Origin: an uncultured Bacteroidia bacterium
Lineage (GTDB): Bacteria; Bacteroidota; Bacteroidia; Bacteroidales; F082
Length of the DNA stretch: 32,196 nt
Direction of reading: 5' to 3'
NCBI GenBank assembly: GCA_902801465.1
Contig: CADCIH010000009.1
Coordinates: forward strand, 1-32,196
Shown: positions 3,112-26,411 of the stretch, one piece after another
Layout of the letters: every line of letters starts with the position of its first letter
How positions within the stretch are numbered: position 1 is the first letter of the stretch
Notes under the pieces: model-generated
What the model was told of the DNA's origin: nothing
Database searches by the model: none
Seen by the model: only the letters and a program-made list of their open reading frames with translations
Position numbers and translations under genes: made by a program

Positions 3112-5106
3112 ATGAAAAAAGTCTTTACCATCCTCACTTTTGTCGCATTGATGGCCGTCATGACCGTTCAAGCACAAGACCGCAAACCCGATTGGGCTCG
3201 CTGGCACTACCTCTCTGAAGAGGAGATGAACACCCCCGTCCGTAACGAGAATTTCACCGAGACCCCGCCTCCGACAGGTGAACCCCGTTTTGTGGGCGAA
3301 TTTGAGCCCATGCAAGGCGTCATGATTCGTTACCCCCTGGGCATCCCTACAAGCCTTGTTGTAGATCTGTCGAACAACTGTATGGTGTATTGCATCACCA
3401 CCCAGCAAAGCAGCGCCCAAAGCACCTTCCAAAACGCTGGTGTCAACATGAACAATGTCACCTTCGTGAACGCCCCTACCGACTCCTATTGGGTACGCGA
3501 CTACGGCCCGTGGTATATTTTTGAAGACCGCACCCCCGCCATCGTGGATAACCGCTACAACCGTCCCCGTCCCAACGACGACAACATGTCGGAAGTGTTC
3601 GCCAACTACTGGAACATCCCCTTGTACGGCATGAACCTCCAACACACCGGCGGTAACATGATGGAAGATGGCCGTGGCCATGGCGTGAGCGATGAGCTGG
3701 TTTTTAACGAAAACAACAATAACGAAGAAAACGTCCGTCAAAAGATGCGCGATTACCTTGGCATCGATCCTTATCATGTCACCATCGACCCGCAAGGCGA
3801 CTACATCGCCCACGTGGACTGCTGGGGCAAGTACCTCGCTCCCGACAAGATTTTGATTGCCCAGCTGCCTTCGAGCAACAGCCATGCCGCTGACTATGAC
3901 GCCGTAGCCAACTACTTTGCCACCACCAACTGCTGCTGGGGCTATCCCTACCATGTCTATCGCGTGCAAGAGCCGGGCGGCTATACCCTGGCTCCCTATA
4001 CCAACAGCCTGATCCTCAACAAGTCGGTATATGTTCCAATGGGCGACAACGCCACCTATAACCAACAGGCCATTGAGGTTTACCAAGAAGCCATGCCAGG
4101 TTACAACATCGTTCCGGTGTATAACAACGACTGGAGCATCGGCTGGGAAAACACCGACGCCCTCCACTGCCGCACCCGTGGCGTGATGGACTTCAACATG
4201 CTCTTTGTGGATCACCGCGAAGTGCTTCACGGCGAACAGGAATGGCAAGAGGAATATCCTGTGGTCTCGAAGTTCATCGCTTACAGCGGCATGGACCTGA
4301 AACAGGATTCACTCCTTGTTTATTATAGCATCAACGGAGGCGAGTACCAAGTGGCTCACATGACGGCTACTGGCAACCCCGATGAGTATGTCGGCAATAT
4401 CACCGGTTTCCAAGGTGGAGATGAAATCGATTACTATGTGTTCGGCGCCGACGAATCGAACCACCGTTACACCCAACCCGTCTTCGCCGAACTCGATCCT
4501 CACCACTTCACCGTGGGTGAGACGCCCCTCATGGATATGGGCTTGGTTACCGAGACCCCGAACGTTGAACTGACGATGGACAATCCTCAAATTGAGGTGG
4601 CTGTCACCAACGCCAACTATGCCTCATCGTCGCTGATCGCAGTATCAGAAATCATGGAAGTGGATAATGAGTATCTGGAAATCATGCCCGAGTACGGACT
4701 GCCTTATTCTCTCGACCTGGGAGAAAGCTTCCACTTTATCATGCTTCCCAATTCTTCCTTGGTAGGAAAAGGAACCGTTGAGACCACTGTCGTTGTGGAA
4801 TCTGACGGCGGTGAAGTGGAGTTCCACGTCACGATCGACGAAGGCCTGTTGGTAAACGTCACCGAGATTTCCGCTGAGACCAAACTCTATCCTAACCCGA
4901 CTTCCGGCCAATTCACCGTGGAAGGTGCCGACATCGCCAGGGTAGAGGTCTATAACTTGGTGGGACAGAAAGTGTTTGAAACGGAAAACGGAGAACGGAG
5001 AACGGAAAACTACATTGATGCCGCAAACTGGAACAAAGGCATTTATCTGGTCAGTATCATCAGCCAGAATGGCGCGGTGGAGACCAGGAAGCTCGTAGTG
5101 GAATAA
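3112..5106 (+). CDS. secreted peptidylarginine deiminase (PPAD-like) with T9SS sorting domain
   Basis: Predicted to convert arginine in proteins or peptides to citrulline at the cell surface. The ATG at 3112 is chosen because it opens a signal peptide (MKKVFTILTFVALMAVMTVQ, then AQ) and follows a good promoter. The guanidino-group-modifying fold spans about residues 45-360. Catalytic residues are visible: Asp130 in WVRDYGP, His234 and Asp236 in HVDCWG, Asn298 in TNSLIL, Cys353 in DALHCRT. These nearly match the numbering I recall for P. gingivalis PPAD (130, 236, 238, 297, 351). Arg151 and Arg153 in YNRPRP match the two arginines that bind the substrate C-terminus there. An immunoglobulin-like region follows, then a T9SS type A domain from about residue 591 (LYPNPTSGQF). 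Four 7-bp repeats are inserted in that domain. Plain agmatine deiminase is less likely because those enzymes are cytoplasmic. Confidence 0.88.
   Translation: MKKVFTILTFVALMAVMTVQAQDRKPDWARWHYLSEEEMNTPVRNENFTETPPPTGEPRFVGEFEPMQGVMIRYPLGIPTSLVVDLSNNCMVYCITTQQSSAQSTFQNAGVNMNNVTFVNAPTDSYWVRDYGPWYIFEDRTPAIVDNRYNRPRPNDDNMSEVFANYWNIPLYGMNLQHTGGNMMEDGRGHGVSDELVFNENNNNEENVRQKMRDYLGIDPYHVTIDPQGDYIAHVDCWGKYLAPDKILIAQLPSSNSHAADYDAVANYFATTNCCWGYPYHVYRVQEPGGYTLAPYTNSLILNKSVYVPMGDNATYNQQAIEVYQEAMPGYNIVPVYNNDWSIGWENTDALHCRTRGVMDFNMLFVDHREVLHGEQEWQEEYPVVSKFIAYSGMDLKQDSLLVYYSINGGEYQVAHMTATGNPDEYVGNITGFQGGDEIDYYVFGADESNHRYTQPVFAELDPHHFTVGETPLMDMGLVTETPNVELTMDNPQIEVAVTNANYASSSLIAVSEIMEVDNEYLEIMPEYGLPYSLDLGESFHFIMLPNSSLVGKGTVETTVVVESDGGEVEFHVTIDEGLLVNVTEISAETKLYPNPTSGQFTVEGADIARVEVYNLVGQKVFETENGERRTENYIDAANWNKGIYLVSIISQNGAVETRKLVVE
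4983..5010 (+). repeat. heptamer array inside the deiminase sorting domain
   Basis: Four exact 7-bp units: GGAAAAC, GGAGAAC, GGAGAAC, GGAAAAC. It encodes the polar stretch TENGERRTEN between VFE and YIDAAN of the T9SS domain and keeps the frame. Confidence 0.85.
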
Positions 5107-5108
5107 TG

Positions 5109-5254
5109 CGGAATTAGGAATGCGGAATGCGGAATGACTATCTACCGAAGGTTCATTCCGCATTCCGCATTCCTAATTCCTAATTTTAATTCCGCATTCC
5201 GCATTCCTAATTCCTAATTTTTAATTCCGCATTCCGCATTCTGCATTCCGCATT
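5109..5254. repeat. long heptamer array with inverted halves
   Basis: The left part has units GGAATTA, GGAATGC, GGAATGC and GGAATGA (5110-5137). The right part (5154-5254) is the inverted form, with TTCCGCA and TTCCTAA units broken twice by TTTTAA or TTTTTAA spacers. The halves can pair as a hairpin with a loop near 5138-5152. It fills most of the gap between two convergent genes and may also help end their transcripts. Confidence 0.85.
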
Positions 5255-5257
5255 TAT

Positions 5258-5416
5258 TTAAACGTCGAACTTGAACTCGGCGTCAAACCAGCCTGTGTCT
5301 TCTTTCAATAAATCGTATTCTTCACCGGTGAGATGATCCACGACATGTACGGTGCCTTTGATGTCGTCGTAGGTAAATGTGAATTGCGAGTTAGGGTCTT
5401 CTAAAGGAACGTCCAT
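5258..5416 (-). CDS. small acidic protein, 52 aa
   Basis: An open frame from ATG at 5416 to TAA at 5258 encodes MDVPLEDPNSQF and ends in TGWFDAEFKFDV. It is acidic, without signal or membrane segment, and I know no family. Coding is supported by a TAnnTTTG box at 5444-5451, a leader of about 27 nt, and codon use like the neighbouring genes. The repeat array begins directly after its stop. Middle section DDIKGTVHVVDHLTGEEYDL looks like a small beta hairpin. It could be a conserved short Bacteroidales protein, but a chance frame cannot be excluded. Confidence 0.6.
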   Translation of the reverse strand: MDVPLEDPNSQFTFTYDDIKGTVHVVDHLTGEEYDLLKEDTGWFDAEFKFDV

Positions 5417-5443
5417 TTTAGTAGTCAATTCTGATTAGGAATG

Positions 5444-5451
5444 CAAAATTA
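5444..5451 (-). promoter_or_regulatory. Bacteroidetes -7 box (TAATTTTG, minus strand)
   Basis: It matches TAnnTTTG and lies 27 nt before the ATG of the 52-aa gene. Confidence 0.55.
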
Positions 5452-5465
5452 CGAATATTTTCCGA

Positions 5466-6161
5466 TTACCACCGGTTTCCGTTCACAATCTTTGCGAATT
5501 TGTTTCGTGAACGTCGTTGTCGAGTGAACATGTTTTTGGCTCTGCCGCTCGGCCAGGAGTACGACTTCGAAGCGATGAAGCCTGTCTCGTCACGGTCGTC
5601 GGGAATGCGTCCGTATTTGTCCTTGTTGTCGGCAAACACGATGATGCTGTCCAAAAACCAGTTCTTCACACAGGAACCGTCGCCGGTATAGAAAAAACAG
5701 AAATGGTTCGATTTGCTGCGCCAAGGCTCCATGTCGAAAGTCAGCAGATACTGGCTCTGTAAGACGCCTTCGGTGATAGTGTCGGTCCAAATGCTCTCCC
5801 AACTCTTATTGTCAGTCGAAATGCCAATGCCAATCACCCCCTTGTGCGAAGTGTCGTACACCTCGATACTATGGTTGAACTGAACCATGATGTAGTCATA
5901 CTTGTCGAGAGTCACCAATGGTGTGGTGAGCATGGTGGTGCCATTGAAGTTGTAGTCGAGGTACATCTGCAGCTCGTTGGCTTTGCTGCCAGCGTATGAA
6001 GTGCCGGAGATATACCAAACCACCCACTCGTCGCCACTGACATCCCAACCTTCGTTGAGCCAGGCATTGTAGAAACCCTCACATAAGACGACGTCCCCCC
6101 GCTGAGCCAGCGTCGGAAGACCCAAAACAACCAGGAACAATATGAAAAACAAACGTTTCAC
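5466..6161 (-). CDS. secreted jelly-roll-like protein, 231 aa, GTG start
   Basis: The start codon is GTG at 6161, giving a clear signal peptide (MKRLFFILFLVVLGLPTLAQ). The body has aromatic beta strands typical of choice-of-anchor J or MAM-like domains: EGFYNAWLNEGW near the start, then the family-like pattern of an exposed sheet (YDYIMVQFNHSIEVY) and FCFFYTGDGSCVKNWFLDSI. Such domains occur in surface adhesins and peptidases of T9SS bacteria. No T9SS sorting domain follows. The last 25 residues are instead basic and arginine-rich (RAKNMFTRQRRSRNKFAK), unlike the rest, which suggests truncation or a frameshift of a once longer protein. The promoter is only 4 nt from the GTG. Confidence 0.75.
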   Translation of the reverse strand: MKRLFFILFLVVLGLPTLAQRGDVVLCEGFYNAWLNEGWDVSGDEWVVWYISGTSYAGSKANELQMYLDYNFNGTTMLTTPLVTLDKYDYIMVQFNHSIEVYDTSHKGVIGIGISTDNKSWESIWTDTITEGVLQSQYLLTFDMEPWRSKSNHFCFFYTGDGSCVKNWFLDSIIVFADNKDKYGRIPDDRDETGFIASKSYSWPSGRAKNMFTRQRRSRNKFAKIVNGNRW

Positions 6162-7274: not shown

Positions 7275-7353
7275 ATCAAGAATTAGAGAATTAAAGAATT
7301 AAAGAAGGAACTTATCACACGATGATTTTTTCTCAAATTCTCTAATTCTTGAT
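7275..7353. repeat. large hairpin with octamer repeats between convergent genes
   Basis: A perfect 18-bp inverted repeat, 7275-7292 and 7336-7353, encloses a 43-nt loop. The left side continues as an 8-bp repeat (GAATTAGA, GAATTAAA, GAATTAAA). It is relative in style to the heptamer arrays. Its place between two convergent genes suggests it may act as a two-way terminator. Confidence 0.7.
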
Positions 7354-7357: not shown

Positions 7358-8104
7358 CTATTTTTTTGGAGCCCAAGCCACAAACGGCGGATTGGGATAA
7401 TCCTCCTTGTCGTACTCCAAAGGTAGCCCGTCGCTGATTCTCACAACCCTGCCTCCAGCAGCGGTAAGGATGGCATCGGCAGCGGCCGTGTCCCACTCCT
7501 TGGTCTTGCTATAACAGACATAGACATCGGCTGTACCCTCGACCAAACGGGCGAACTTCAAGCTGCTGCCCTGGGTGTCGATGACCAAGTCGGGATGTTC
7601 CGGACGTAACACCTTATTTATATATTCATCCACCTCCGGGGTCCGGTGCGAACGACTGACCAACACGGTGAAAGTGGAAAGTGGAGAGTGGAAAGTGGAA
7701 AGTTTTCCGTTTTCCACTTTCCACTCTCCACTTTCCACTCCCCACAGCTGTTCCGTCACAGGCGCATAGATCACCCCCAATACCGGCCGCTTGTTTTCGA
7801 TTAAGGCGATATTCACGGTAAACTCTCCGTTGCGTTTCACGAACTCTGCGGTGCCGTCCAATGGATCCACCAGCCAATAGCGACCGAACTTCGAGCGGTC
7901 TGGCGGCAAGTCCTCCTCGCTCACAAAAGGCAAGCCCGTCGGCTTCAGCATCTCCTTGATGATATTGCTCGCCCGAAGGTCTGCCTGGGTCACCGGCGAA
8001 TCATCGTCTTTTGTATATACTTCAAACGCCTGTGCGTATACTTCCATGATGGCCCGACCTGCCTCGCGAGCCGCTTCCGTAGCCGTTGATAACAAATTGT
8101 TCAT
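7358..8104 (-). CDS. cysQ: 3'(2'),5'-bisphosphate nucleotidase CysQ (inositol monophosphatase family)
   Basis: Predicted to remove the 3' phosphate of PAP or PAPS, the by-product of sulfate assimilation, with Mg2+ in the cytoplasm or at the membrane. Both family signatures are present: WLVDPLDGTAEF (metal site, residues about 77-88) and EWDTAAADAILTAAGG (about 203-218). An early acidic metal residue lies in VSEEDL. Residues about 123-145 (WGVESGEWKVENGKLSTFHS and following) are encoded by a heptamer array with a perfect palindrome and replace the short loop normally seen there. Length without the insert is ordinary. The promoter (8109-8116) lies only 4 nt from the ATG. A general inositol phosphatase is possible, but the motifs fit CysQ better. 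Confidence 0.9.
   Translation of the reverse strand: MNNLLSTATEAAREAGRAIMEVYAQAFEVYTKDDDSPVTQADLRASNIIKEMLKPTGLPFVSEEDLPPDRSKFGRYWLVDPLDGTAEFVKRNGEFTVNIALIENKRPVLGVIYAPVTEQLWGVESGEWKVENGKLSTFHSPLSTFTVLVSRSHRTPEVDEYINKVLRPEHPDLVIDTQGSSLKFARLVEGTADVYVCYSKTKEWDTAAADAILTAAGGRVVRISDGLPLEYDKEDYPNPPFVAWAPKK
7674..7738. repeat. 28-bp perfect palindromic heptamer array inside cysQ
   Basis: Left arm 7674-7701: GTGGAAA, GTGGAGA, GTGGAAA, GTGGAAA. Right arm 7711-7738 is its exact reverse complement. The loop of 9 nt (7702-7710) contains a TTTCCGT-type unit. Partial units flank both arms. The whole is translated in frame. Confidence 0.92.
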
Positions 8105-8215: not shown

Positions 8216-10576
8216 ATGACAAAGAATTTAGTAATCGTTGAGTCACCCGCAAAAGCCAAAACAATCGAAGGTTTTTTAGGTAAGGAATACACCGTCAAGT
8301 CGAGCTACGGACACGTCCGCGACCTGAACAAAAACACGCTTAGTGTCAATATAGAAAAGGATTTTGAACCTGAATACGAGATCAGCGACGACAAGAAAGC
8401 GCTCGTCGCTGAACTGAAGAAACTCTCCAGCCAAGCCCAGACCATCTGGCTCGCATCCGATGAGGACCGCGAGGGAGAATCCATCTCATGGCATCTTTAC
8501 GAAGCCCTTGATCTTAAGCACAAAGACACCAAACGTATTGTGTTCCACGAGATTACCAAGACCGCCATATTGAACGCCATCGAGAATCCCCGTGATATCG
8601 ACATGGACCTGGTGGCCGCCCAGCAAGCCCGTCGCGTGCTCGACCGTCTGGTAGGTTATGAGCTGTCACCCCTGCTCTGGAAGAAGGTGAAACCCTCACT
8701 CTCGGCAGGCCGTGTGCAGTCGGTCGCCGTCCGCCTCATCGTGGAACGCGAAGAGGAGATCAAAAACTTCCAGCAGACCAGCGCTTATCGCATCACCGCT
8801 CAGTTCTCGTTCCTCCAGGATGGACAGGAGTATTCCATCGCCGCCGAGATGCCCAACCGCTTCGATACCGAGGCCGAAGCCCGCGCTTTCGTGGAGTCGT
8901 GCATCGGAGCCAGCTATAAAGTGGAAAACATCGAGAAGAAACCCTCTTCAAGGACACCGGCACCGCCGTTCACCACCTCCACCTTGCAACAGGAAGCCGC
9001 CCGTAAACTGGGCTTCTCCGTGGCCAACACCATGCGCCTCGCCCAACAACTCTATGAGTCAGGTAAGATCACTTACATGCGTACCGACTCTGTCAACCTC
9101 TCAAGCCTCGCCCTCGGCATGGCCAAGAAAGTGATCACCGAAAACTACGGCGCCGATTACGTCAAGACACGCCAATATCACACCAAGACCAAAGGTGCTC
9201 AAGAGGCTCACGAAGCCATCCGCCCCACCTACTTGGACCAAAATACCATCAAAGGTACCGCCGACGAGCGTCGCCTCTACGAACTCATCTGGAAACGCAC
9301 CATCGCCTCCCAGATGTCCGACGCCCAAATTGAACGTACCAACGTCAACATCGGCATCTCCACTTCCGACAAGAAATTCACCGCCACAGGCGAAGTCATC
9401 CTCTTCGACGGATTCCTCAAGGTGTATATGGAGAGCTACGATGACGATGAAGTGGAAAATGGAAAGTTGAAAATGGAAAGCTCTCCACTCTCCACTTTCA
9501 ACTTTCAACTTAAAGAGGGTACCGTTCTCGAACTCGACAAGATGGAAGCCCAACAACGCTTCACCCGTCACCCGCTCCGTTACACCGAAGCGAGCCTGGT
9601 GAAGAAGATGGAAGAACTGGGCATCGGCCGCCCCTCGACCTACGCGCCCACCATCTCCACCATCCAGAAACGTGAGTATGTGACCAAAGGCGATATCAAA
9701 GGCACCGTCCAGGCCTTCAATGTCATCACCCTGAAGAACAATAAGATCACCGAAAAGACCGGCAAGGAAAACTACGGCGCCGAGAAGGGCAAACTGTTGC
9801 CTACCGACATCGGCGTGCTCGTCAACAGGTTCCTGCTGCAATACTTTGAGAGCATCATCGACTACAACTTCACCGCCAACGTGGAAAAAGAGTTCGACAA
9901 GATCTCTGAAGGCCAGTGCGAATGGAACAAGATGATCCGTGAGTTCTATGCCGGCTTCCATAAACAAGTGGTCAGCACCACCGAGAACTCAGGCAAGTTC
10001 AGCGGCGAGAAACTGCTCGGCGTGGACCCCGCCACAGGTAAAAACGTCTACGTGAAAGTCGGTCGTTTCGGCCCCGTGGCCCAGATTGGCGACACCGAGT
10101 CGGAAGAGAAACCCCGTTTCGCTGGCCTCCGCAAAAACCAAAGCATCGAGACCATCACCCTCGAAGAAGTGTTGAAACTGTTCGAGTTCCCACGCATCCT
10201 CGGTGAATACGAGGGTAAGGAAGTGAGCGTCTCCGTCGGCCGCTTCGGCCCCTACGTGAAACACGCCAACGCGTTCTACGGCCTCGCCAAGACCGATAAT
10301 CCGGCTACCATCGACATCGAGCGCGCCATCGAGATCATCGGTGAGAAACGCCAGAAAGACGAGGAGAACACCATCCTCACCTTCGATAACGATCCCGAGA
10401 TGAAAGTGCTTAACGGCCGCTTCGGTCCTTATATCGCCTACAAAAAGAAAAACTACCGCATCCCGAAAGACGTGGATCCTCACACCTTGACCTACGAAGA
10501 CTGCCTGAAGTTGGTGGAAGACGCCCCCAAGACAGCTCCGAAAAAGGCCGCTCCCAAACGCAAAAAGAACTCTTAA
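8216..10576 (+). CDS. topA: DNA topoisomerase I
   Basis: Relaxes negatively supercoiled DNA by cutting one strand. The TOPRIM domain opens with VIVESPAKAKTIEGFLG (residues 6-22) and carries DEDREGE (82-88) for Mg2+. The active-site tyrosine is Tyr287 in GKITYMRTDS. The block HPLRYTEASLVKKMEELGIG RPSTYA follows, and the C-terminal region has several GRFGPYV-type repeats in place of zinc fingers, as usual in Bacteroidetes, then a lysine-rich tail (KKAAPKRKKNS). At about residues 413-432, just after GFLKVYMESYDDD, a heptamer array has inserted about 20 residues (EVENGKLKMESSPLSTFNFQ). Length (786 aa) and motifs show a working enzyme. Confidence 0.97.
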   Translation: MTKNLVIVESPAKAKTIEGFLGKEYTVKSSYGHVRDLNKNTLSVNIEKDFEPEYEISDDKKALVAELKKLSSQAQTIWLASDEDREGESISWHLYEALDLKHKDTKRIVFHEITKTAILNAIENPRDIDMDLVAAQQARRVLDRLVGYELSPLLWKKVKPSLSAGRVQSVAVRLIVEREEEIKNFQQTSAYRITAQFSFLQDGQEYSIAAEMPNRFDTEAEARAFVESCIGASYKVENIEKKPSSRTPAPPFTTSTLQQEAARKLGFSVANTMRLAQQLYESGKITYMRTDSVNLSSLALGMAKKVITENYGADYVKTRQYHTKTKGAQEAHEAIRPTYLDQNTIKGTADERRLYELIWKRTIASQMSDAQIERTNVNIGISTSDKKFTATGEVILFDGFLKVYMESYDDDEVENGKLKMESSPLSTFNFQLKEGTVLELDKMEAQQRFTRHPLRYTEASLVKKMEELGIGRPSTYAPTISTIQKREYVTKGDIKGTVQAFNVITLKNNKITEKTGKENYGAEKGKLLPTDIGVLVNRFLLQYFESIIDYNFTANVEKEFDKISEGQCEWNKMIREFYAGFHKQVVSTTENSGKFSGEKLLGVDPATGKNVYVKVGRFGPVAQIGDTESEEKPRFAGLRKNQSIETITLEEVLKLFEFPRILGEYEGKEVSVSVGRFGPYVKHANAFYGLAKTDNPATIDIERAIEIIGEKRQKDEENTILTFDNDPEMKVLNGRFGPYIAYKKKNYRIPKDVDPHTLTYEDCLKLVEDAPKTAPKKAAPKRKKNS
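9452..9509. repeat. inverted heptamer array inside topA
   Basis: Left half 9452-9480 has units of the type GGAAAAT, GGAAAGT, TGAAAAT, GGAAAGC. Right half 9481-9509 is the inverted form (CTCTCCA, CTCTCCA, CTTTCAA, CTTTCAA). The two halves match imperfectly, at about 22 of 29 positions. The reading frame stays open. Confidence 0.8.
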
Positions 10577-11655: not shown

Positions 11656-11738
11656 GAATTAGGAATGCGGAATTATTACCTCCGGAGGCTAATTCCGCAT
11701 TCCTAATTCCGCATTCCTAATTCCGCATTCCGCATTCC
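11656..11738. repeat. heptamer array with 20-bp perfect inverted repeat
   Basis: 11656-11675 and 11690-11709 are perfect reverse complements. The loop holds a further palindrome, CCTCCGGAGG (11679-11688). More TTCCTAA and TTCCGCA units continue to 11738. The array ends 7 nt before the ATG at 11746, so it fills the whole gap between the two genes. Confidence 0.88.
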
Positions 11739-16954: not shown

Positions 16955-16981
16955 TCTAACTCAACCCCTCATAGGAAAACG

Positions 16982-17010
16982 CTAAATTCTAAACTCTAAA
17001 TTCTAAATTC
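16982..17010 (+). repeat. CTAAATT heptamer array in the mreB leader
   Basis: Four units (CTAAATT, CTAAACT, CTAAATT, CTAAATT) and one extra base. It ends 6 nt before the mreB start codon and so occupies the region where a ribosome-binding site would lie. Confidence 0.75.
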
Positions 17011-18867: not shown

Positions 18868-19391
18868 ACCGGACTTTGATGAATATAATAAGGTTTGTAG
18901 CGTTGGTAACTGCACAAGTGTTGCTTATCAATCATATCCGACTGGGCGGCTACGTGCATCCTTACATCTATCTCATCTTCGTGATGCTGCTACCCCTCAA
19001 TACCCCGGGTTGGCAACTCTTGCTCTCGGGATTCGGCATCGGTTTGGTGATCGACCTGTTTATGGGTACCTTGGGCATGCACGCCGGAGCCACCACACTG
19101 ATGGCTTTTTGCCGCCCTGCTATCATAAGAATCGTGTCAGGAAGCCAGAAACTTGAGATGAACCGGGAGCCAAACATTAATCAGGTGGGGTTCCCTTGGT
19201 TTTTGCGTTATACCTTTGTCATGGTACTGGTACACAACTTCACCTATTTCATGCTCGAAGGGTTCAGCTTCCATTTGGTGGGACAAGCCCTGTTGCGCAT
19301 TTTGATTAGCGTGCCGGTATCGGTGTTTTTGATCATCGTGGTGATGTACTTGTTCTCGAGAGACAAGGGGAAGATGAGAGATAAGAGATAA
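18864..19391 (+). CDS. mreD: rod-shape-determining protein MreD
   Basis: A small polytopic inner-membrane protein (175 aa) with about five membrane helices, the usual third member of mreBCD. The segments FGIGLVIDLFMGTLGMHAG and FMLEGFSF are typical. The last residues (KMRDKR) are encoded by a heptamer array that also contains the stop codon. In many Bacteroidales mrdA and rodA follow mreD, but here radA comes next, 26 nt downstream. Confidence 0.92.
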   Translation: MNRTLMNIIRFVALVTAQVLLINHIRLGGYVHPYIYLIFVMLLPLNTPGWQLLLSGFGIGLVIDLFMGTLGMHAGATTLMAFCRPAIIRIVSGSQKLEMNREPNINQVGFPWFLRYTFVMVLVHNFTYFMLEGFSFHLVGQALLRILISVPVSVFLIIVVMYLFSRDKGKMRDKR

Positions 19392-19417
19392 AAGTTAAAA
19401 GATAAAAGATAAAAGTT
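19372..19417 (+). repeat. AGATAAA-type heptamer array joining mreD and radA
   Basis: Units AGATGAG, AGATAAG, AGATAAA, AGTTAAA, AGATAAA, AGATAAA, then AGTT directly before the radA ATG. The mreD stop codon lies within the array, and the entire spacer before radA is repeat. Confidence 0.85.
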
Positions 19418-20785
19418 ATGGGGGCGAAGGAGAAGAGCGTGTTTTTCTGTAAATCGTGCGGCAACGAGTCGCCGAAATGGTTTGGGAAATGCCCTGCTTG
19501 CGGGGAATGGAATACTTGCGTGGAAGAGAAGGTGGTGGAAAGTGGAAAACGGAGAACGGAAAACGGAGAACGGAAAACGGAAAACTTTCCACTCCCTATA
19601 TGTGAGATTTCCAACGCTGAGGAGCTGCGGATTGTGCTGCCTTTTGCGGAACTCAACCGGGTGCTGGGCGGCGGATTGGTGTTGGGATCGTTGGTGCTGG
19701 TAGGCGGCGAGCCTGGTATCGGAAAATCAACACTTTTATTGCAGACAGCTCTTCAACTTATCAATAAGAAAGTACTTTATATCTCCGGTGAGGAGAGCCA
19801 GACCCAGATCAAGATGCGCGCCGACAGGATTGGCATCCGCAACGAGCAGTGTCTGATTCTCACCGAGACCGATACCAAGGAGATCTTGAACCACGTCAAG
19901 GAGGTGCAGCCCGATATCATCGTTGTGGACTCCATCCAGACCTTGAGTTCGCCATACGTGGATGCTACGGCAGGAACGGTCTCGCAGATTCGGGAGTCTG
20001 CAGCCGAGATGAACAAGATTGCCAAGACATACCAGGTGCCTGTGTTTCTGATCGGTCATATCACCAAGGACGGCAGCATCGCCGGACCGAAGATATTGGA
20101 ACATATCGTGGATACCGTGTTGCAATTTGAAGGAGACCGTCATTATGGCTTCCGAATCTTGCGAACCATCAAGAACCGTTTTGGTTCCGCTTCGGAGTTG
20201 GGTATCTTCGAGATGAACGCGACGGGCTTGCGTGAGGTGACCAATCCCAGCGAGTTCCTTTTGTCGCAGCGCGACGAGGAGGTGAGTGGCATTGCCATCG
20301 CCGCCACCATGGAGGGACAGCGCCCCATGCTCATCGAGACCCAGGCTTTGGTGAGCACGGCGGCTTATGGCACGCCGCAGCGTTCCGCCACCGGCTTCGA
20401 TACCCGGAGGATGAACATGTTGTTGGCTGTCTTGGAAAAGCGTGCCGGCTTCCGTTTGAACATGAAGGATGTGTTTTTGAACATCGCCGGAGGCATCCGC
20501 AGCGATGATCCTGCCTTGGATCTCTCGGTGGTGGCCGCAGTGCTTTCATCCAATGCGGACATCCCCATCGACAGCCGTTATTGTTTCGCCGCCGAGGTGG
20601 GACTTTCGGGAGAGATTCGTGCCGTCACTCGCATTGAGGCACGCATTGCCGAGGCCGACAAGCTTGGTTTCGAGAAGATTTTCGTCTCCAAATACAACGC
20701 CAAGGGGTTGAACACCCAGCGTTTTCACATTGAGGTGGTTCCGGTGGCTACGGTTTACGACCTGGCGACGGAACTGTTTGGGTGA
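19418..20785 (+). CDS. radA: DNA repair protein RadA (Sms)
   Basis: A RecA-like ATPase that drives branch migration in recombination. The zinc finger has Cys11, Cys14, Cys25 and Cys28 (CKSCG, CPACG). Walker A is GGEPGIGKST (96-105). The RadA-specific KNRFG motif is in LRTIKNRFGSASELGIF. The C-terminal Lon-like domain includes LDLSVVAAVLSSNADIPI. Residues about 40-57 (VESGKRRTENGERKTENF), between the zinc finger and the ATPase, come from a heptamer array. Length is 455 aa. It ends a plus-strand run that starts at purH. The downstream gene faces it. Confidence 0.96.
   Translation: MGAKEKSVFFCKSCGNESPKWFGKCPACGEWNTCVEEKVVESGKRRTENGERKTENFPLPICEISNAEELRIVLPFAELNRVLGGGLVLGSLVLVGGEPGIGKSTLLLQTALQLINKKVLYISGEESQTQIKMRADRIGIRNEQCLILTETDTKEILNHVKEVQPDIIVVDSIQTLSSPYVDATAGTVSQIRESAAEMNKIAKTYQVPVFLIGHITKDGSIAGPKILEHIVDTVLQFEGDRHYGFRILRTIKNRFGSASELGIFEMNATGLREVTNPSEFLLSQRDEEVSGIAIAATMEGQRPMLIETQALVSTAAYGTPQRSATGFDTRRMNMLLAVLEKRAGFRLNMKDVFLNIAGGIRSDDPALDLSVVAAVLSSNADIPIDSRYCFAAEVGLSGEIRAVTRIEARIAEADKLGFEKIFVSKYNAKGLNTQRFHIEVVPVATVYDLATELFG
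19537..19592 (+). repeat. heptamer array inside radA
   Basis: Seven units (GGAAAGT, GGAAAAC, GGAGAAC, GGAAAAC, GGAGAAC, GGAAAAC, GGAAAAC) and then one inverted unit, TTTCCAC. It stays in frame. It mixes the two unit types found separately in cysQ and in the deiminase gene. Confidence 0.9.
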
Positions 20786-20946: not shown

Positions 20947-21629
20947 AGGAATTTAACGATTCCGCTGATGATAAAGTAAAGCCCAAACAAAACCAGCCCC
21001 CAGCCGATAATCCTGTTCATGATGCGAATGCGTTTCGCGTTGAAGAACTTTTTCAAGAACGAAGCGCCCTTGGCCTTCAAGAGGTCACAGCCTAAACTGG
21101 TGCCCAGCACAATGGCGAAAAACAACAAAATCTTCAACTTGTTGCCTCCCATGTTGCCTGCGGTAATGGCCACCGTGCTGAACCAGAAAATCCATACAAA
21201 CGGGTTGAGGATGTTCAGCACAAAGCCTTTTCCAAAAAACACAAACCAACGGGGCGTATCGTCGTCCTTCTTGAAATTCTCACGGTTTTCATCAATGATC
21301 TCGTCAGTGCGCTCCTTGATGCTCTTGAAGTTGTCTTCCTTGACCTTTTTCGTATAGGTGAAGATGCCAAACAAAACCAAGATGATGCCCGCGCCAAGGC
21401 TGAAAAAAAACATCTCTCGATTGTTATTGGCAACCACCTGGATGGATGTCAGCACGCAAAGCGACACCATCAGAATGTCGTTGAGAAACACCCCCGCGGC
21501 AAACCATGCCGCCGATCGGAACCCACGATGGATACTGGTCTGAATCAATGTGATAAACGCCGGGCCAAACCCTAACACAATAGCCAAGGTCAACCCAAAC
21601 ACAATCGCATCGAATACAAACCGTATCAT
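20943..21629 (-). CDS. LysE/RhtB-type amino-acid exporter
   Basis: A predicted six-helix inner-membrane exporter of the LysE superfamily. The first helix holds the family-type GFGPAFITLIQTSIHRGFRS, comparable to the GPGP motif. A charged cytoplasmic loop (residues about 95-122, KKVKEDNFKSIKERTDEIID) separates the first three helices from the last three, and NPFVWIFWFS marks the fourth. It begins 3 nt after the GH3-like gene's stop, so the two share an mRNA. The substrate is unknown. Cleaning out an amino acid or conjugate linked to the GH3 reaction is a guess from position only. Confidence 0.85.
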   Translation of the reverse strand: MIRFVFDAIVFGLTLAIVLGFGPAFITLIQTSIHRGFRSAAWFAAGVFLNDILMVSLCVLTSIQVVANNNREMFFFSLGAGIILVLFGIFTYTKKVKEDNFKSIKERTDEIIDENRENFKKDDDTPRWFVFFGKGFVLNILNPFVWIFWFSTVAITAGNMGGNKLKILLFFAIVLGTSLGCDLLKAKGASFLKKFFNAKRIRIMNRIIGWGLVLFGLYFIISGIVKFL

Positions 21630-21632
21630 AGT

Positions 21633-23234
21633 TTATAGTTTTCCGTTCTCCGTTTTCCGTTTTCCGTTCCCCAAATACTCTTCCCACATCTCCAACCGCT
21701 TTCCCTTCAACACCCTCGGGAACTTCGTCGCACCACCCCACTTGCCAATCTTCTCTTCCATAAATTTATAGAATATTTCCGTTGGAAGCACATCAACAAA
21801 CAATTCCTTGATGGCCTCAGTGCGCTCCACGGCATAGTCGTCGTTGAGCTTGCAGAGATGTTCGTCGATCTTCTTGATGGCCACCTGCGGGTCGAGGGGT
21901 TCGTCGCAACCCAGATACCAATGATGGGCATACATGGTGTCATGCTTGATGCCCGCCACGGTGAACTCGGTAATGTCAACCCCCAGCTCCTCGGCGGTCA
22001 TCTCCACCGCCTGCGTCATGTTATCCTGCGAGAGGTGTTCGCCAGTGATGCTCAGGAACTGTTTGGTGCGACCTGTGATGGCGATGTTCACCCCCTTGGG
22101 CCGTTCGCCAAACAAAGGACCGTCAGGAGGAAGGATTTTGATAGTGTCACCAATAAGGTAACGCCAAGTGCCAGCACAGGTTGAGAGCAGCAAGGCATAT
22201 TCGGTATTGGGCTCCACCTCCTTCAACGTCAGCGTCTTGGGATGCTCCACAATGTTGCCGTTCTCATCGAAGTTCTCCTCGTTGAAAGGCACAAACTCGA
22301 AATAGATGCCATTGTCGACCAGCAGCTGCATCACGCGCTTATTCAAGTCAACCTGATAGGCAATATAGCCCTCCGAGGCCAAATAACTCTCGATGTAGGT
22401 CACCTTTTTGCCAAAGATGCGCTCAAAGCTCTTCTCGTAAGGAGCGAAAGCCACGCCGCTGTGAACATACACCATCAGGTTGGGCCAGATGTCGTGGATG
22501 GTCTTGAGCTTGTATTCCTTGATGATGCGCTCCAGCAGGATCTGCACCCAAGCAGGCACGCCCACGATGACGCCGATATCCCAAGTAGGAGCGGCCTTCA
22601 CCATCTCGTCGAGCTTCTCCGACCAGTCCTTGATCTTCGAGATGCGCTGCCCGGGCTTGTAGAAGAACTCAAACCATCTCGGAATCTTTCCCGCCGAGAT
22701 CCCCGAAAGGTCGCCGGCATAATAGCCGCCCTCACGGCTGTAGGAAAGGTCGGTCGATCCGCCAATCATCAGCACACCGCGGTTGTAGAAGTCCTTCGGG
22801 AAGTCGTAACGCACCGCCGACACCAGCTGACGGATGCTCGCCTTAGTGATCTTCGAGTTGAGTTCACGGGTGATGGGGATGTATTTGCTTGACGCTTCGG
22901 AGGTGCCGCTGCTTAAAGCGAAGTATTTGATCTTTCCCGGCCAAGCCACGTTGTGCTCGCCGTTCAGGGCGCGGTACCACCACTCGTCATGCATCTTGTT
23001 GTAGTCGAAAACGGGCACGGTGTTTCTGAAAGCCTCCATGACGTTTTTCGACAAAAGGATATCCGTAAAATGGTAATGTCTTCCAAAATCAGTGAACTGG
23101 GCCTTGCGGAGCAGCTTCTTCAACTCGCGCTCCTGGGCCTTCACTGGTCTGATAGTTCGTTGCTTGATCTGCACTGGGATGTTTTTCAACTCAGCGGCAG
23201 TCTTGACAATGGTTCCAAATAATTGTGAGGGCAT
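21633..23234 (-). CDS. GH3-family acyl-adenylating enzyme
   Basis: Related to plant GH3 (JAR1-type) enzymes, which activate a carboxylic acid with ATP and join it to an amino acid. The ATP-binding block is YFALSSGTSEASSKYIPI. Other landmarks are YIESYLASEGYIAYQ, NTEYALLLSTCAGTWRYLIG and TGRTKQFLSITGEHLSQDNM, in the usual order. Bacterial members are common in Bacteroidetes, but their substrates are poorly known. The last dozen residues (GNGKRKTENGKL) are translated from a heptamer array, so the native end has been changed. Promoter at 23260-23267. The exporter gene follows after 3 nt. Confidence 0.88.
   Translation of the reverse strand: MPSQLFGTIVKTAAELKNIPVQIKQRTIRPVKAQERELKKLLRKAQFTDFGRHYHFTDILLSKNVMEAFRNTVPVFDYNKMHDEWWYRALNGEHNVAWPGKIKYFALSSGTSEASSKYIPITRELNSKITKASIRQLVSAVRYDFPKDFYNRGVLMIGGSTDLSYSREGGYYAGDLSGISAGKIPRWFEFFYKPGQRISKIKDWSEKLDEMVKAAPTWDIGVIVGVPAWVQILLERIIKEYKLKTIHDIWPNLMVYVHSGVAFAPYEKSFERIFGKKVTYIESYLASEGYIAYQVDLNKRVMQLLVDNGIYFEFVPFNEENFDENGNIVEHPKTLTLKEVEPNTEYALLLSTCAGTWRYLIGDTIKILPPDGPLFGERPKGVNIAITGRTKQFLSITGEHLSQDNMTQAVEMTAEELGVDITEFTVAGIKHDTMYAHHWYLGCDEPLDPQVAIKKIDEHLCKLNDDYAVERTEAIKELFVDVLPTEIFYKFMEEKIGKWGGATKFPRVLKGKRLEMWEEYLGNGKRKTENGKL
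21639..21670. repeat. heptamer array at the 3' end of the GH3 gene
   Basis: Units TTTTCCG, TTCTCCG, TTTTCCG, TTTTCCG, then TTCCCC; on the minus strand these are the GGAAAAC/GGAGAAC type. It encodes the C-terminal tail of the GH3-like protein and precedes the exporter start codon by about 10 nt. Confidence 0.85.
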
Positions 23235-23919: not shown

Positions 23920-23948
23920 TTTTTGTTTCAAAAAGTCTGAAACAAAAA
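23920..23948 (-). terminator. A+T-rich hairpin after the DUF2461 gene
   Basis: A perfect 11-bp stem (23920-23930 with 23938-23948) around a 7-nt loop lies 17 nt after the DUF2461 stop. The stem has few G-C pairs and lacks a strong T tract on the minus strand, so the terminator role is uncertain. Confidence 0.4.
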
Positions 23949-23964
23949 GCCTGCCAGTGTTTAT

Positions 23965-24627
23965 TCATCTTTCCACTTGATTGAGCCATTGACAAAAGTC
24001 CTTCGTCTTTTTGAACTCATCAAGAACCCATTCCACGAGGTTGGGACTGTAAAGGTGCTTGTCGTCCACTTCTTTGACTAACAGCCAGTCGCGTTGCTTG
24101 AAAAACTCGGCATAGGCATGATCCTTCGGATAGCCGTTGGGCACTCGTTTCATGTTGCGTCCGGTATCCAAGGTAAAGCCCTTGGCCTTCTTGATGGCCT
24201 CGCTTAATGGTTCGCCGTTGTAAAGAATCTCCTCTCTGATGGTTTTAAGTGTCTCAGGAAAAGGCATATACATTCCCGTACAGAGCATGTTGCCACTGAA
24301 GTAATCTTCTGATTCCCTAGGCTGTACCTGAAAATAATAGCCGCTGAGCATCGATTTCTTTCCGCCTTTGCACACAAACACCCCGAAGTGCGTCTTGTAA
24401 GGCGTTTTATCCGCTGAGAAACGGGTGTCGCGATAGAAGCGATAGGTGCAATCCTTCAAAGTCAACCCCTGCATGTCGGGATCGAACCGCTGAACCCCAT
24501 CAATAATCTGCTCGGCAATGGCATTGAACTTCGCTTGGGCGCTTTGGTATTCCTGTTTGTGCTCATGGAACCACTCACGGTTGTTGTTGTGGAGCACATT
24601 GGTGAGAAAAGTGATGATTTCTTCCAT
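23965..24627 (-). CDS. DUF2461 family protein
   Basis: A 220-aa soluble protein with features of the DUF2461 (TIGR02453) family: FLTNVLHNNNREWFHEHKQ at the start, DCTYRFYRDTRFSADKTPYK in the middle, followed by THFGVFV and a GYYFQVQP strand, and a final PNGYPKDHAYAEFFKQRDWL. The cellular role of the family is unknown. The gene has its own promoter (24646-24653) and a possible terminator (23920-23948), so it looks monocistronic. Confidence 0.9.
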   Translation of the reverse strand: MEEIITFLTNVLHNNNREWFHEHKQEYQSAQAKFNAIAEQIIDGVQRFDPDMQGLTLKDCTYRFYRDTRFSADKTPYKTHFGVFVCKGGKKSMLSGYYFQVQPRESEDYFSGNMLCTGMYMPFPETLKTIREEILYNGEPLSEAIKKAKGFTLDTGRNMKRVPNGYPKDHAYAEFFKQRDWLLVKEVDDKHLYSPNLVEWVLDEFKKTKDFCQWLNQVER

Positions 24628-24645
24628 AATGAACTTTTTCGCTTA

Positions 24646-24653
24646 CAAAGATA
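24646..24653 (-). promoter_or_regulatory. Bacteroidetes -7 box (TATCTTTG, minus strand)
   Basis: It matches TAnnTTTG, 18 nt before the DUF2461 start at 24627. Confidence 0.6.
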
Positions 24654-24688
24654 AATCATTTTCTGAAATAAAAACATAAGCTTCCCAA

Positions 24689-24746
24689 ACGTGCCGAAGG
24701 CACGTGATCTCAATAACCCCACACAAGCGATAGCGCAGTGTGGGGT
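24689..24746. repeat. REP-like double hairpin
   Basis: The first hairpin has 7-bp arms (ACGTGCC, loop GAA, GGCACGT; 24689-24705). The second has 9-bp arms (ACCCCACAC 24716-24724, GTGTGGGGT 24738-24746) around a 13-nt loop. It lies in the 287-bp gap between two divergent genes. Its form suggests a dispersed intergenic repeat. Confidence 0.65.
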
Positions 24747-24865
24747 AAAAAAAGACAAGGACAAAACGAAATCCTGCTAAGCTATAACTCAATGAAAATC
24801 AATATCTATCAACTTGGACAGCCTGAAATGATAGGGACATTCTCCAAAGCTCCTTTAGAAACCCC

Positions 24866-24894
24866 TTGACAAGTTGTTTTTCTCTGTAATTTTG
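24866..24894 (+). promoter_or_regulatory. promoter with TTGAC and TAATTTTG
   Basis: The -7 box TAATTTTG (24887-24894) matches the consensus. TTGAC at 24866-24870 lies near the -33 position. The ATG at 24915 is 20 nt further on. Confidence 0.65.
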
Positions 24895-24914
24895 CATCAA
24901 CAACCATTCGAAAT

Positions 24915-26381
24915 ATGAGAACACAATTTCTAATTCTCGTGTTGGTCTGCAGCTTGCTGGCCGCTTGCAACACCCAAACCAAACGGGTGGGACAAGCCCA
25001 ATCCCTTTATGAAGAAGGAACATGCCTGCGCGAGCAACGCCAATCGGAAGAGGCCGCCGAAAAGTTCTTGCAAGGACTGGAAGCGTTGCAGGCTTGCGAA
25101 AAGACCACAGAAGTCCTGCAACTCGAAGGGCAACTTTGCGACAACCTCGGTGCGATGTACTTCAAGCATGGACTGTTCGAGGGCGCTTTTCTCCAGCATC
25201 AAAAGGCCTTGGATTGTTTCCGCCAGACCTTGGACTCCACGGGTATGATGAACGCCTACCGCAATAGTGGCCGGGCCGTCAGGGCACAGGAACAATACAC
25301 CCAAGCCAAACATTATTATGACTCAGCCTTTATCATCGCCTCCTTGATTAATGATCAAGCCATGCTGGGCGACCTCTATCTGGAGATGGGGCGCGACTAT
25401 TATATGGAGACCGGCAACTTTGCCAAAGGCATCGAGAGTGTCAACAAGGCATTGGAAATCGGCCTCAGCGACACCGATACCGACATCGCACACATGACCT
25501 TGGGCATCCTTTATTATTATTTGAACGATTTCGAGTACGCCAAAAGCTTTTTGAACGAAGCCTTGCGTAGCGAACGCCCTGGATTGAAAATGTCTGTCTA
25601 TCAGACGCTTTATGCCATCGCCTACAGCGAAGGCGACTACAAGCAGGCCATCCAATACCATCAGTTGTTCTCAACGAATTTGCTGGAATCGGAACAAGAA
25701 CATTCCAGCGAGGTCATGCTACGCATCAAGTCGGAATACGAACTGAAAGCCCAACAAAGCGAGCTGGAGAGCCTGCATCGCAACCACGACTTGAAGTTAT
25801 ATCTGATTATCGCTCTGGTACTGATTGCTCTGTTGGTCATCCTTTTGATTGTGAGGAAGATTGTTAGCGACCATAAGTTGAAGATGGAACAGTTTGGACG
25901 TCAAGTGGAGCGTGACCAAAACCGTATCCACGAGCTGGTAAGCGACATGGAGACCTTAATTCGCACCAACGACGAGCTACGACGCAACCAGCAGACCCTC
26001 TCGCAGAAAGAGCTGATGATGACCCAGAAGATCATGGCCCGAAACAAAGTGATGATCACAGCCCAAGCCCTCAGCGAACAGGTGAACGCCGACACACTCA
26101 ACTTCGAGCTTACCGACAGCGACTGGACCGACTTCATCAACCTCACCGACTTGATCTTCGACGGCTTCTCACAACGCCTGCTTCAGCTCTTCCCCAAGCT
26201 CGGCAAATGGGACGTGCGCATCTGCTGCCTCTCCAAAAACGGCTTCTCCAATCAGGTGATTTCCATCTTGTTGGATACCCAAACCGACTCCTATTATAAA
26301 CGTAAAACCCGAATCAAACAAATGAAAATGAACCTCGGAGACGACAACCGGTCGTTCGAAGAGATAGTTAATGCGGTGTAA
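24915..26381 (+). CDS. TPR lipoprotein/membrane regulator with C-terminal HTH
   Basis: The N-terminus is a lipoprotein-type signal (LLAAC, Cys18). Residues about 25-265 form tetratricopeptide-like helix pairs (LCDNLGAMYFKHGLFEGAFL and similar). One membrane helix follows at about 295-316, then a coiled coil (VERDQNRIHELVSDMETLIR) and a C-terminal LuxR-like helix-turn-helix (KWDVRICCLSKNGFSNQVIS). The plan fits Bacteroidales regulators that sense something outside the membrane and bind DNA inside. The likely target is the next gene, a BspA-like surface protein, 68 nt downstream on the same strand. A heptamer array lies right after its stop. The function is inferred from layout. Confidence 0.82.
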   Translation: MRTQFLILVLVCSLLAACNTQTKRVGQAQSLYEEGTCLREQRQSEEAAEKFLQGLEALQACEKTTEVLQLEGQLCDNLGAMYFKHGLFEGAFLQHQKALDCFRQTLDSTGMMNAYRNSGRAVRAQEQYTQAKHYYDSAFIIASLINDQAMLGDLYLEMGRDYYMETGNFAKGIESVNKALEIGLSDTDTDIAHMTLGILYYYLNDFEYAKSFLNEALRSERPGLKMSVYQTLYAIAYSEGDYKQAIQYHQLFSTNLLESEQEHSSEVMLRIKSEYELKAQQSELESLHRNHDLKLYLIIALVLIALLVILLIVRKIVSDHKLKMEQFGRQVERDQNRIHELVSDMETLIRTNDELRRNQQTLSQKELMMTQKIMARNKVMITAQALSEQVNADTLNFELTDSDWTDFINLTDLIFDGFSQRLLQLFPKLGKWDVRICCLSKNGFSNQVISILLDTQTDSYYKRKTRIKQMKMNLGDDNRSFEEIVNAV

Positions 26382-26383
26382 AC

Positions 26384-26411
26384 GGAGAACGGAGAACGGA
26401 AAACGGAAAAC
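26384..26411 (+). repeat. heptamer array after the TPR/HTH gene
   Basis: Four units: GGAGAAC, GGAGAAC, GGAAAAC, GGAAAAC. It begins 2 nt after the stop codon and ends 38 nt before the BspA-like start. Confidence 0.88.

Follow-up and report, generated by a model that had tools for sequence, protein, structure and literature searches.

Heptamer arrays in a Bacteroidales genome and its relatives: one period, changing units, shared addresses

Short tandem arrays with a 7-bp unit are scattered over the window (the whole stretch of 32,196 nucleotides analysed here) and over the genome to which it belongs. At three of the eleven array addresses of the window, namely the CysQ loop, the RadA linker and the gap at 11656, many relatives carry an array as well; the flanks are conserved on both sides, and between five and ten different units are found at each of the three. 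The 7-bp bias itself is already published. For unit switching at conserved addresses we found no report in the literature searched. The earlier observation of heptamer arrays, made in a sequence-only reading, is confirmed, and the interpretation given with it, an active and tolerated spreading process, is partly supported.

Tandem Repeats Finder (TRF) returned 34 rows for the window, 17 of them with period 7. In a lag-match scan of the window with periods 3-21 (score >=16) we found 12 arrays at period 7, one at period 8, three at period 14, two at period 21 and none at any other period; the window shuffled 10 times per period gave a mean of 0.0 arrays. All ten heptamer sites listed before and the octamer relative at 7275-7353 were recovered within a few bases by TRF and the lag scan. 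We then sampled 432,196 bp of the source genome (G000; 2,457,948 bp, a draft in 34 contigs), that is C1:1-300,000, C4:1-100,000 and the window, or about 18% of the genome. At score >=14 this sample holds 77 arrays at period 7, three at period 21, two at period 8, one each at periods 9, 10, 12, 14 and 15, and none at the remaining periods of 4-21. The excess over shuffled sequence, which had been named as a test, is thus 77 against 0 in 432 kb (one shuffling per period). The detector has no bias to 7, since at a given array length a shorter period gets a higher score. In 820 kb of the same-genus genome G020 (periods 4-15) we count 68 arrays at period 7, seven at period 8 and at most two elsewhere. 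The comparison of related loci took in 80 of 220 relatives; in 33 F082-like loci, hand-picked by identity and record title, there are 42 arrays at period 7, eight each at periods 8 and 14, one at period 9 and two at period 15. The period spectra of the window, the sample and G020 bear out that the period is more constant than the sequence. One site per about 3 kb, as estimated before, holds for the dense window (13 arrays in 32 kb) but not for the genome sample, where another 64 arrays lie in the other 400 kb and the mean is one per 5.6 kb.

The window sites differ in unit and in setting. ORF 3031-5106 encodes a PAD-like protein that carries a T9SS sorting tail, and close to the C-terminus of this protein lies a GGARAAC array on the plus strand (4979..5010). 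The adjoining convergent-gene gap holds inverted GGAATGC/GGAATTA arrays (5105..5254), which by repeat scan and folding form a long hairpin (5100-5200: -57.8 kcal/mol, z -10.6) and in which a 35-bp block of five units is duplicated. The 8-bp array at 7275..7353 is an inverted pair in another convergent-gene gap (-30.2 kcal/mol, z -8.2) and a relative of the heptamer hairpins. Inverted GGAAAGT arrays with a 32-bp stem and a 9-nt loop are found within cysQ (7665..7745, minus strand, ORF 7358-8104), and inverted GGAAARY, ACTTTCC and ACTCTCC arrays within topA (9448..9511, plus strand, ORF 8216-10576). GGAATNN hairpin arrays (11656..11738) occupy the gap between a gene of the deoxyhypusine synthase family and a formimidoylglutamase-like gene, a conserved address. 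Further downstream on the plus strand are a AATTCTAA array in the short stretch between purH and mreB (16977..17010, by TRF and lag scan), a GATAARA array which runs over the mreD stop up to the radA start codon (19371..19418), and a GGARAAC array within radA (19533..19601, ORF 19418-20785), between the zinc ribbon (residues 11-36) and the ATPase domain (from residue 75). GGARAAC arrays are also present at the 3′ end of an OlsH-like gene (21628..21670, minus strand, ORF 21633-23234) and directly after ORF 24915-26381, before ORF 26450-28528 (26380..26411, plus strand). The formula GGA(A/G)(A/T)RY proposed earlier describes part of the units; GATAARA, GAATTNN and GGAATGC are also common. Folding of ten window sites gave z <= -6 at four and z > -3 at five. 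A known structured RNA or tRNA was rejected as their identity, with 0 matches of the window to Rfam at gathering thresholds and 0 ARAGORN results.

Arrays lie both within and between genes, as had been stated for the window, and this is also seen in the genome sample. With genes taken as long open reading frames picked mechanically, which overcalls coding DNA (93-96%), 41 of the 77 arrays are intergenic against 5.3% of random positions, and 14 of 77 fall in convergent gaps against 1.2%. Another 31 of the 77 are inside predicted genes, away from the gene ends. An inverted partner within 90 bp accompanies 13 of 14 convergent-gap arrays, 16 of 36 coding, 6 of 24 codirectional and none of 3 divergent ones (one array was shifted by hand from the coding class to the purH-mreB gap for this count). 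The arrays are situated at protein termini, in linkers, in loops or between genes; in the model of CysQ the only stretch with pLDDT <50 lies in the array loop. Conserved genes of the clade with internal arrays include topA, radA, cysQ, tilS and one for a Mur ligase. In G000, units free of stops in all six frames make up 23 of 31 arrays internal to coding sequences and 4 of 46 others (p 3e-9). In G020, however, the figures are 4 of 23 and 2 of 45 (p 0.17). Coding and intergenic arrays do not differ there in their units as they do in G000, and we do not regard stop-free units as a general rule of coding arrays.

At the orthologous cysQ site 13 of 28 relatives have a period-7 array, with nine unit types among them; the corresponding figures are 10 of 24 with ten types for the 11656 gap and 8 of 16 with five types for radA. 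The background, period-7 arrays at orthologous sites of 150 random positions, is 21 of 1293. These counts leave out loci L058 and L060, which come from one and the same genome. Empty orthologous sites, the comparison suggested earlier, do exist: at the topA site none of 32 relatives has an array, and the relatives are about 27 bp shorter there. Arrays are likewise absent from the aligned relatives at 4979..5010 (0/4), 5105..5254 (0/4), 7275..7353 (0/7), the mreD/radA site 19371..19418 (0/6) and 21628..21670 (0/1), which makes seven of eleven addresses array-free in every aligned relative if 26380..26411, where none aligned, is counted. In the purH-mreB gap an array of the AATTCTAA unit is found in one of nine aligned relatives and also in G020, and at the address in the OlsH-like gene G020 carries an AACTCCT array. 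Other dispersed hairpins were found at the same addresses as arrays.

The unit can switch despite close flanks, as between loci L134 and L114 (flank identity 94%) and between L087 and L067 (97%), and homogenisation within an array is seen when L087 is compared with L067 and L071. Among six same-unit pairs with close flanks, which are partly reciprocal and hence not independent, the length difference is 0 modulo 7 in three, all of equal length, and 1, 1 and 6 modulo 7 in the other three. Clean unit steps were found in only two cases, the array G000:C1:228653 against its G020 counterpart (93 and 86 bp) and the 35-bp block of the window. Length steps of seven between close relatives thus appear weakly shown by these comparisons.

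Sister species have the same 7-bp period and other dominant units. Counted as overlapping three-unit matches on both strands, which are not numbers of arrays, GGARAAC (at most one mismatch) yields 271 matches in G008, 210 in G000, 85 in G020, 34 in G010, 11 in G033 and 1 in G004, and 0 in the other 30 of 35 same-genus genomes. Exact GGTGARA gives 211 in G010, 52 in G004, 40 in G020, 32 in G035, 23 in G033, 2 in G060 and 0 in G000, and exact GATAARA gives 85 in G033, 77 in G000, 65 in G020, 40 in G035 and 0 in both G010 and G004. These pools support the view that the arrays are dispersed over the genome and specific to the lineage. A network of single substitutions joins 43 of 49 unit types; genomic heptamers joined 10.9 on average (maximum 31, 50 draws) and letter-shuffled units 27.9 (maximum 39, 200 draws). 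A common GAR[AGT] core was discarded because the units of the GATAAAA type, a main family, lack it; the core is present in 36 of the 49 unit types, compared with 32% of genomic heptamers.

Unit change at shared sites points to what may be a fast copying process with a step of seven. We suggest that the arrays are a drifting heptamer satellite which behaves like selfish DNA, a reading to which we would give an even chance, and that it may proceed in the following steps. Within an array, units would be duplicated or lost and made uniform in register; replication slippage or template switching with a preferred step of 7 nt is the most likely mechanism. Short arrays, often as inverted pairs, could then be copied to new sites within the genome by template switching or ectopic conversion, with no need for a dedicated transposase, so that each species would build its own pool of favoured units; such pools are seen. 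The units probably change by one substitution at a time with the 7-bp register preserved, a step which is supported. Most insertions would be removed by selection, and a tolerant address might be refilled repeatedly with new units; the switching at such addresses is observed. Inverted arrays in convergent gaps probably act as terminator-like hairpins. No array was traced from donor to target, and the flanks of different array sites gave matches that were few, short or from other repeats. Judging by the turnover between species, the spreading may be going on now.

Several other explanations have to be weighed. If the arrays were the arms of a mobile MITE or REP/RAYT-type hairpin moved in trans by a transposase, the inverted partners of convergent-gap and coding arrays would be expected and so would the addresses shared with other dispersed hairpins; moreover, 28 of 40 same-genus genomes have a Y1_Tnp match, and G000 has one. 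However, no such match was found in G015 (99% complete) and G017 (94% complete), and both bear arrays, three in the single 20-kb stretch of G015 examined and two in 20 kb of G017. A Y1/RAYT transposase is therefore no requirement. Many arrays are single and unpaired, no common ends were seen among the array sites of the G000 sample, and this account would not explain why dozens of unrelated units have a single period; we consider such a hairpin unlikely. A templated writer, a reverse transcriptase or telomerase-like enzyme which adds 7-nt units at breaks from species-specific templates, would account for units that are particular to a species, for their strict length and for the inverted pairs. 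One RVT_1 match is indeed present in G000 and 22 of 40 same-genus genomes have a match, but 18 have none, among them the array-bearing G010 (84% complete) and G015. Thus a reverse transcriptase is not required either. Since a single genome has many units, and different templates need not have equal length, we find the templated writer very doubtful. The linked enzyme that the sequence-only reading had in mind, a REP-type transposase or reverse transcriptase, was not found, as G015 has neither an RVT_1 nor a Y1_Tnp match. Two further candidates were dropped. A DinB-type polymerase does not discriminate, because 33 of 36 genomes have IMS matches, and loss of SbcCD does not explain the survival of palindromes, as G000 has an SbcD match in an open frame of 398 aa.

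Local slippage only, in which each array would grow out of the sequence already in place and none would be copied from site to site, fits the homogenisation within arrays described above and the link between heptamer excess and polymerase slippage (Mrazek et al. 2007, cited in PMC4679880 and PMC4692102). That one unit should occur at many unrelated sites of one genome and be absent from a sister species, as with the 211 matches of GGTGARA in G010 against 0 in G000, is not expected from local sequence alone, and in our view this is an improbable account of the whole. Selection could also maintain the arrays as regulatory or structural sites (terminators, operon spacers, binding arrays), with their function kept and their sequence free to change. 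The convergent-gap excess, nearly all hairpins, and the four window sites with z <= -6 speak for it; the 31 arrays inside predicted genes and the five sites with z > -3 speak against it, and function does not account for the 7-bp period, which makes selection on the sites quite improbable as the explanation. An assembly or binning artefact might be suspected of a draft genome, the more so as every named near relative is a MAG; most of the nearest come from the ruminant gut. Such an artefact is hardly credible, given that independent assemblies from other studies have arrays at the same addresses, within the reading frames of conserved genes.

Rickettsia palindromic elements (RPEs) are short hairpin-forming repeats that are inserted in frame in protein-coding genes; they are defined palindromes of about 100-150 bp. 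Compared by description only, they resemble the arrays as hairpin-forming repeats in coding genes, whereas here we have 7-bp tandem arrays with a changing unit. A likeness in design to the STRR heptamers of cyanobacteria had been noted before, and we can support it and extend it to the heptamers of Xanthomonas. Head-to-tail 7-bp units as in STRR-type heptameric repeats are present in the window and in the 432 kb of G000, and genome-wide dispersal and a lineage-typical unit are both seen. According to the account in PMC4692102, the STRR repeats of cyanobacteria and the GGGNATC repeats of Xanthomonas and Nostoc have in common with our arrays the 7-bp unit, the few copies per array, the genome-wide spread, the non-coding excess and the lineage-typical unit. 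They differ in that they consist of one or few G-rich units, are proposed to form G-quadruplexes and are under-represented in genes. Here, in contrast, there are dozens of units in one genus, mostly without G-runs (GGG is absent from all 15 unit types of the G000 sample), inverted pairs are frequent, housekeeping genes contain arrays, and sister species have another unit at the same address. The TAACTGA direct repeats of Beggiatoaceae, some cyanobacteria and five Bacteroidetes (PMC4679880) are likewise 7-bp tandem arrays, patchy over phyla and intermixed with other heptamers; TAACTGA itself is absent among our 49 unit types. In that account, indels at matching sites of two Cyanothece strains are mostly 7-nt steps, and relatives have shorter gaps without repeats. 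The study followed one unit, and its passages on Cyanobacteria and Bacteroidetes do not tell of unit switching at conserved addresses. In most bacterial genomes heptamers are reported to be the most frequent of the long units (5-11 nt), an excess which our arrays share; 7 nt may be the length that the polymerase touches (Mrazek et al. 2007, cited in PMC4679880 and PMC4692102). That work is a statistical survey and, as retold in these two papers, contains no comparison of addresses between sister species.

Why bacteria prefer 7-bp repeats has been an open question since the surveys of long simple repeats. The clade is rich in natural replicas, since about a dozen sister species share the addresses and differ in their unit pools, so the origin of the unit length (polymerase, element or selection) becomes testable. 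A wider proposal, possible in our opinion but on the doubtful side, is a sequence-independent 7-nt duplicating step in several phyla and in phage DNA of the same cells, which would write, rewrite and transplant arrays so fast that the address outlives the sequence; a shared part of the replication machinery, rather than a mobile element, would set the step length. If so, orthologous loops of essential proteins and gene gaps would stay heptamer sites whose unit changes from one species to the next. The arrays also matter for protein evolution, as repeat peptides take the place of whole loops, for gene annotation and for the role of phages in carrying repeats. A query with a 56-base array gave no match in phage and plasmid records, a result of little weight because the search filters simple repeats. 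GC-rich IMG/VR contigs hold many more arrays, strictly of 7 bp, and two of the three such contigs checked are tailed phages.

The heptamer arrays described by the sequence-only reading are borne out, as period 7 accounts for 17 of the 34 TRF rows of the window. A scan of lags 3 to 21 found 12 arrays at lag 7, one at 8, three at 14, two at 21 and none at other lags; the same scan of the shuffled window sequence gave no array. The excess extends beyond the window, with 77 period-7 arrays in 432 kb of its genome G000 (a draft of 34 contigs and 2,457,948 bases), where the other periods between 4 and 21 add three arrays at 21, two at 8, one each at 9, 10, 12, 14 and 15, and no more. Array density in the window is about 2–3 times that of the remaining G000 sequence. 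The related genome G020 has 68 arrays at period 7, two each at 9 and 12 and one each at 14 and 15; period 8 ranks second there (seven arrays) and ties with period 14 for second in the related loci (eight). An 8-bp repeat also forms a hairpin at 7275–7353 of the window, flanked by convergent genes. Among other Bacteroidota (47 loci) period 7 again leads, with 11 arrays, though it dominates less: there are seven at period 6, four at 11 and three at 12. The gene content of the window is Bacteroidales-like (methylmalonyl-CoA mutase, T9SS-tailed proteins, CysQ, TopA, RecJ, PurH, MreBCD, RadA and others). The closest named relatives of its TopA, at 78–90% identity, are mostly Bacteroidales/Bacteroidia MAGs from rumen and other gut samples, and include bacterium F082 at 84%, which suggests a host related to F082.

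The main new result is the switching of units at conserved addresses, as read from alignments of orthologous array sites. With a score cut-off of 11, relatives carry an array at the cysQ loop in 13 of 28 cases, at the gap 11656–11738 in 10 of 24 and at the radA linker in 8 of 16. For 150 random positions arrays were found at 21 of 1293 orthologous sites, and for a second set of 80 positions at 0 of 627. In the cysQ loop sister species have GGTGARA, GTTGAGA, GTTGAGT, AATGCNG or TCTCCTG arrays. Yet other relatives have unrelated hairpins of the GTAGGGACGCAC type or, in L061 and L063, of the GTCATTGCGAGG type; dispersed hairpin repeats of these types lie at the heptamer-array address in the cysQ orthologues L061:9070-9885, L063:9061-9891 and L073:8987-9727. 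On either side of the loop the CysQ blocks hardly vary, but the loop itself changes in both length and sequence throughout the alignment. The structure model of the window's CysQ has a mean pLDDT of 81.9, and its sole stretch below 50, residues 133–140, lies within the repeat loop. In the RadA linker the window and L032 have GGARAAC, L034 has GGTGAAA, L033 has AGTGAGG-like units, and L035, L036, L063, L064 and L066 have AGAAGNN; in eight more relatives the linker consists of ordinary codons. Content can differ between close flanks, as in L134 versus L114 (94%), L087 versus L067 (97%) and L062, with an array, versus L061, with a 127-bp hairpin (96%).

At the remaining eight window addresses arrays were found in 0/4, 0/4, 0/7, 0/32, 1/9, 0/6, 0/1 and 0/0 relatives (none aligned for the last). 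Most sites are thus young or short-lived, and a few are long-lived. Empty orthologous sites, which the earlier reading had proposed to look for, do exist: the topA array of the window is missing in all 32 relatives, which are about 27 bp shorter there. Because the flanking codons differ as well, the change amounts to replacement and growth rather than clean insertion. The sampled 820 kb of G020 offered an alignment for 18 of the 63 G000 array sites: G020 has the same unit at two of them, a related unit at one, an unrelated heptamer at three and no array at 12.

The unit pools, measured by exact or near-exact triple units, differ sharply between sister species. GGARAAC is present in G000, G008, G020, G010 and G033, with one hit in G004, and in none of the remaining genomes of the 35 of the same genus; of 295 further genomes sampled from the phylum, only one has it. 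GATAARA has 77 hits in G000 and none in G010, and AGAAGWC is thinly spread (11 of 40 genomes). GGTGARA has 211 hits in G010 and none in G000 or G008; its reversed pattern is not a clean control, because it spells the heptamer GGARAGT and so matches several genomes. Tallied in canonical rotation, the most frequent units of the 77 G000 arrays are AAAACGG (23) and AACGGAG (9) of the GGARAAC family, AAAAGAT (10) and AAGAGAT (3) of the GATAARA family, and AAGAATT (7), AAATTCT (6), AATGCGG (5), AATTAGG (4) and AAAGTGG (3). Single arrays contain mixed units. Together 205 arrays from G000, G020 and related loci and stretches comprise 49 unit types at a strict period of 7, which upholds the view that the period is held more strictly than the sequence. 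A one-substitution network joins 43 of these types. The largest component of such a network averages 10.9 (maximum 31, 50 draws) for random genomic heptamers and 27.9 (maximum 39, 200 draws) for letter-shuffled units; composition thus explains part of the connectivity, since the latter control is much nearer the observed value. We read the network as units that drift while the 7-bp register is kept.

The arrays lie both within and between genes, as had been noticed: mechanical ORF picks place 36 of the 77 in ORFs and the rest in gaps that are codirectional (24), convergent (14) or divergent (3), against 94.7%, 2.8%, 1.2% and 1.2% for random G000 positions. The GGARAAC family is inside genes in 30 of 36 arrays and other units in 1 of 41 (Fisher 2.5e-14, after one array was moved by hand). 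GGAAAAC arrays have no stop in any of the six frames and, 7 being coprime to 3, encode one and the same seven-residue repeat, GKRKTEN, in each sense frame; GATAAAA and GAATTAA arrays contain stops. A stop-codon filter therefore suffices for the placement in G000. As a general rule it was rejected, as the stop-free contrast in G020 is not significant. Within proteins the repeats are often near termini or in linkers, and the genes concerned include TopA, RadA, CysQ, a Mur ligase, TilS, peptidase U32, MBOAT proteins and a DcuC carrier. Two MBOAT-family genes of contig C4 (L157:2444-3922 and L157:6741-8189), about 2.8 kb apart in opposite orientation, have similarly placed arrays.

Inverted pairs involve 13 of 14 arrays in convergent gaps, 16 of 36 in genes, 6 of 24 in codirectional gaps and 0 of 3 in divergent gaps. 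At the cysQ site the computed fold is a stem of 32 bp closed by a loop of 9 nt (−57.1 kcal/mol, z −10.5); no strong fold was obtained for the window sites at 19371, 16975, 26375, 21628 and 19533. In the tilS frame (L145:11903-13219, contig C1 of G000) composite palindromic repeats, GCACCCC..GGGGTGC and GCATCCC..GGGATGC, adjoin a heptamer array, and similar pieces flank other arrays. L075:19211-19340 is a nested repeat, a GGAATNN array with a hairpin of heptamers of the GCTNTTA type after it, at a site that L073 and L078 lack. The SbcD match is split in G000 (C6:52025-52729), G008, G010, G014, G032 and G033, by family match only, as if by an insert in the gene.

The arrays thus keep a strict period with drifting units and species-specific pools, use some addresses repeatedly and form inverted pairs. 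We suggest that a 7-nt step could occur during slippage or template switching, that arrays may be copied from site to site and that selection would filter them. A linked reverse transcriptase or Y1 transposase, as once envisaged, is not needed, as at least one genome that is nearly complete and carries arrays has neither. Directly, a 7-nt step is seen only at one orthologous hairpin (93 versus 86 bp) and in a duplicated 35-bp block; multiples of 7 do not predominate among the differences in array length between close pairs, which is a weak point of such a step.

Heptamer arrays as a kind are already known. PMC4679880 describes heptamers of the unit TAACTGA from Beggiatoaceae, cyanobacteria and five Bacteroidetes, 7-nt indels between two Cyanothece strains, and a heptanucleotide excess with the idea of a polymerase contact (Mrazek et al. 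2007, as cited there). Two other papers report GGGNATC repeats of Xanthomonas and Nostoc (PMC4692102) and a subset of 6–9 bp STRs enriched in prokaryotic phyla (PMC12699852). Because our search of the open-licence literature found no description of this clade's heptamer arrays, or of one unit replacing another at a conserved address, this variant and the address test across species appear to be new.

Searching IMG/VR for runs of four GGARAAC units returned 14 stretches on 13 contigs, 13 of the stretches with a G+C of 0.57–0.67. When arrays of the query unit are set aside, the stretches contain 27 period-7 arrays of 20 unit types, against one at period 10 and four at period 12; they are not all independent, because L239 and L241 share arrays. 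In a protein-family check of three contigs, portal and terminase genes of phages were found on L234 and L236, the L236 portal matching best a Brevundimonas phage (43% identity), and L242 encodes proteins with Ig domains that are related to structural proteins of phages. Such arrays, even the GGARAAC unit itself, therefore occur in phages of GC-rich hosts, which may reflect either convergence or transfer. The tailed-phage contigs L234 and L236 each have eight period-7 arrays in 11–12 kb, with many unit types and some inverted pairs.
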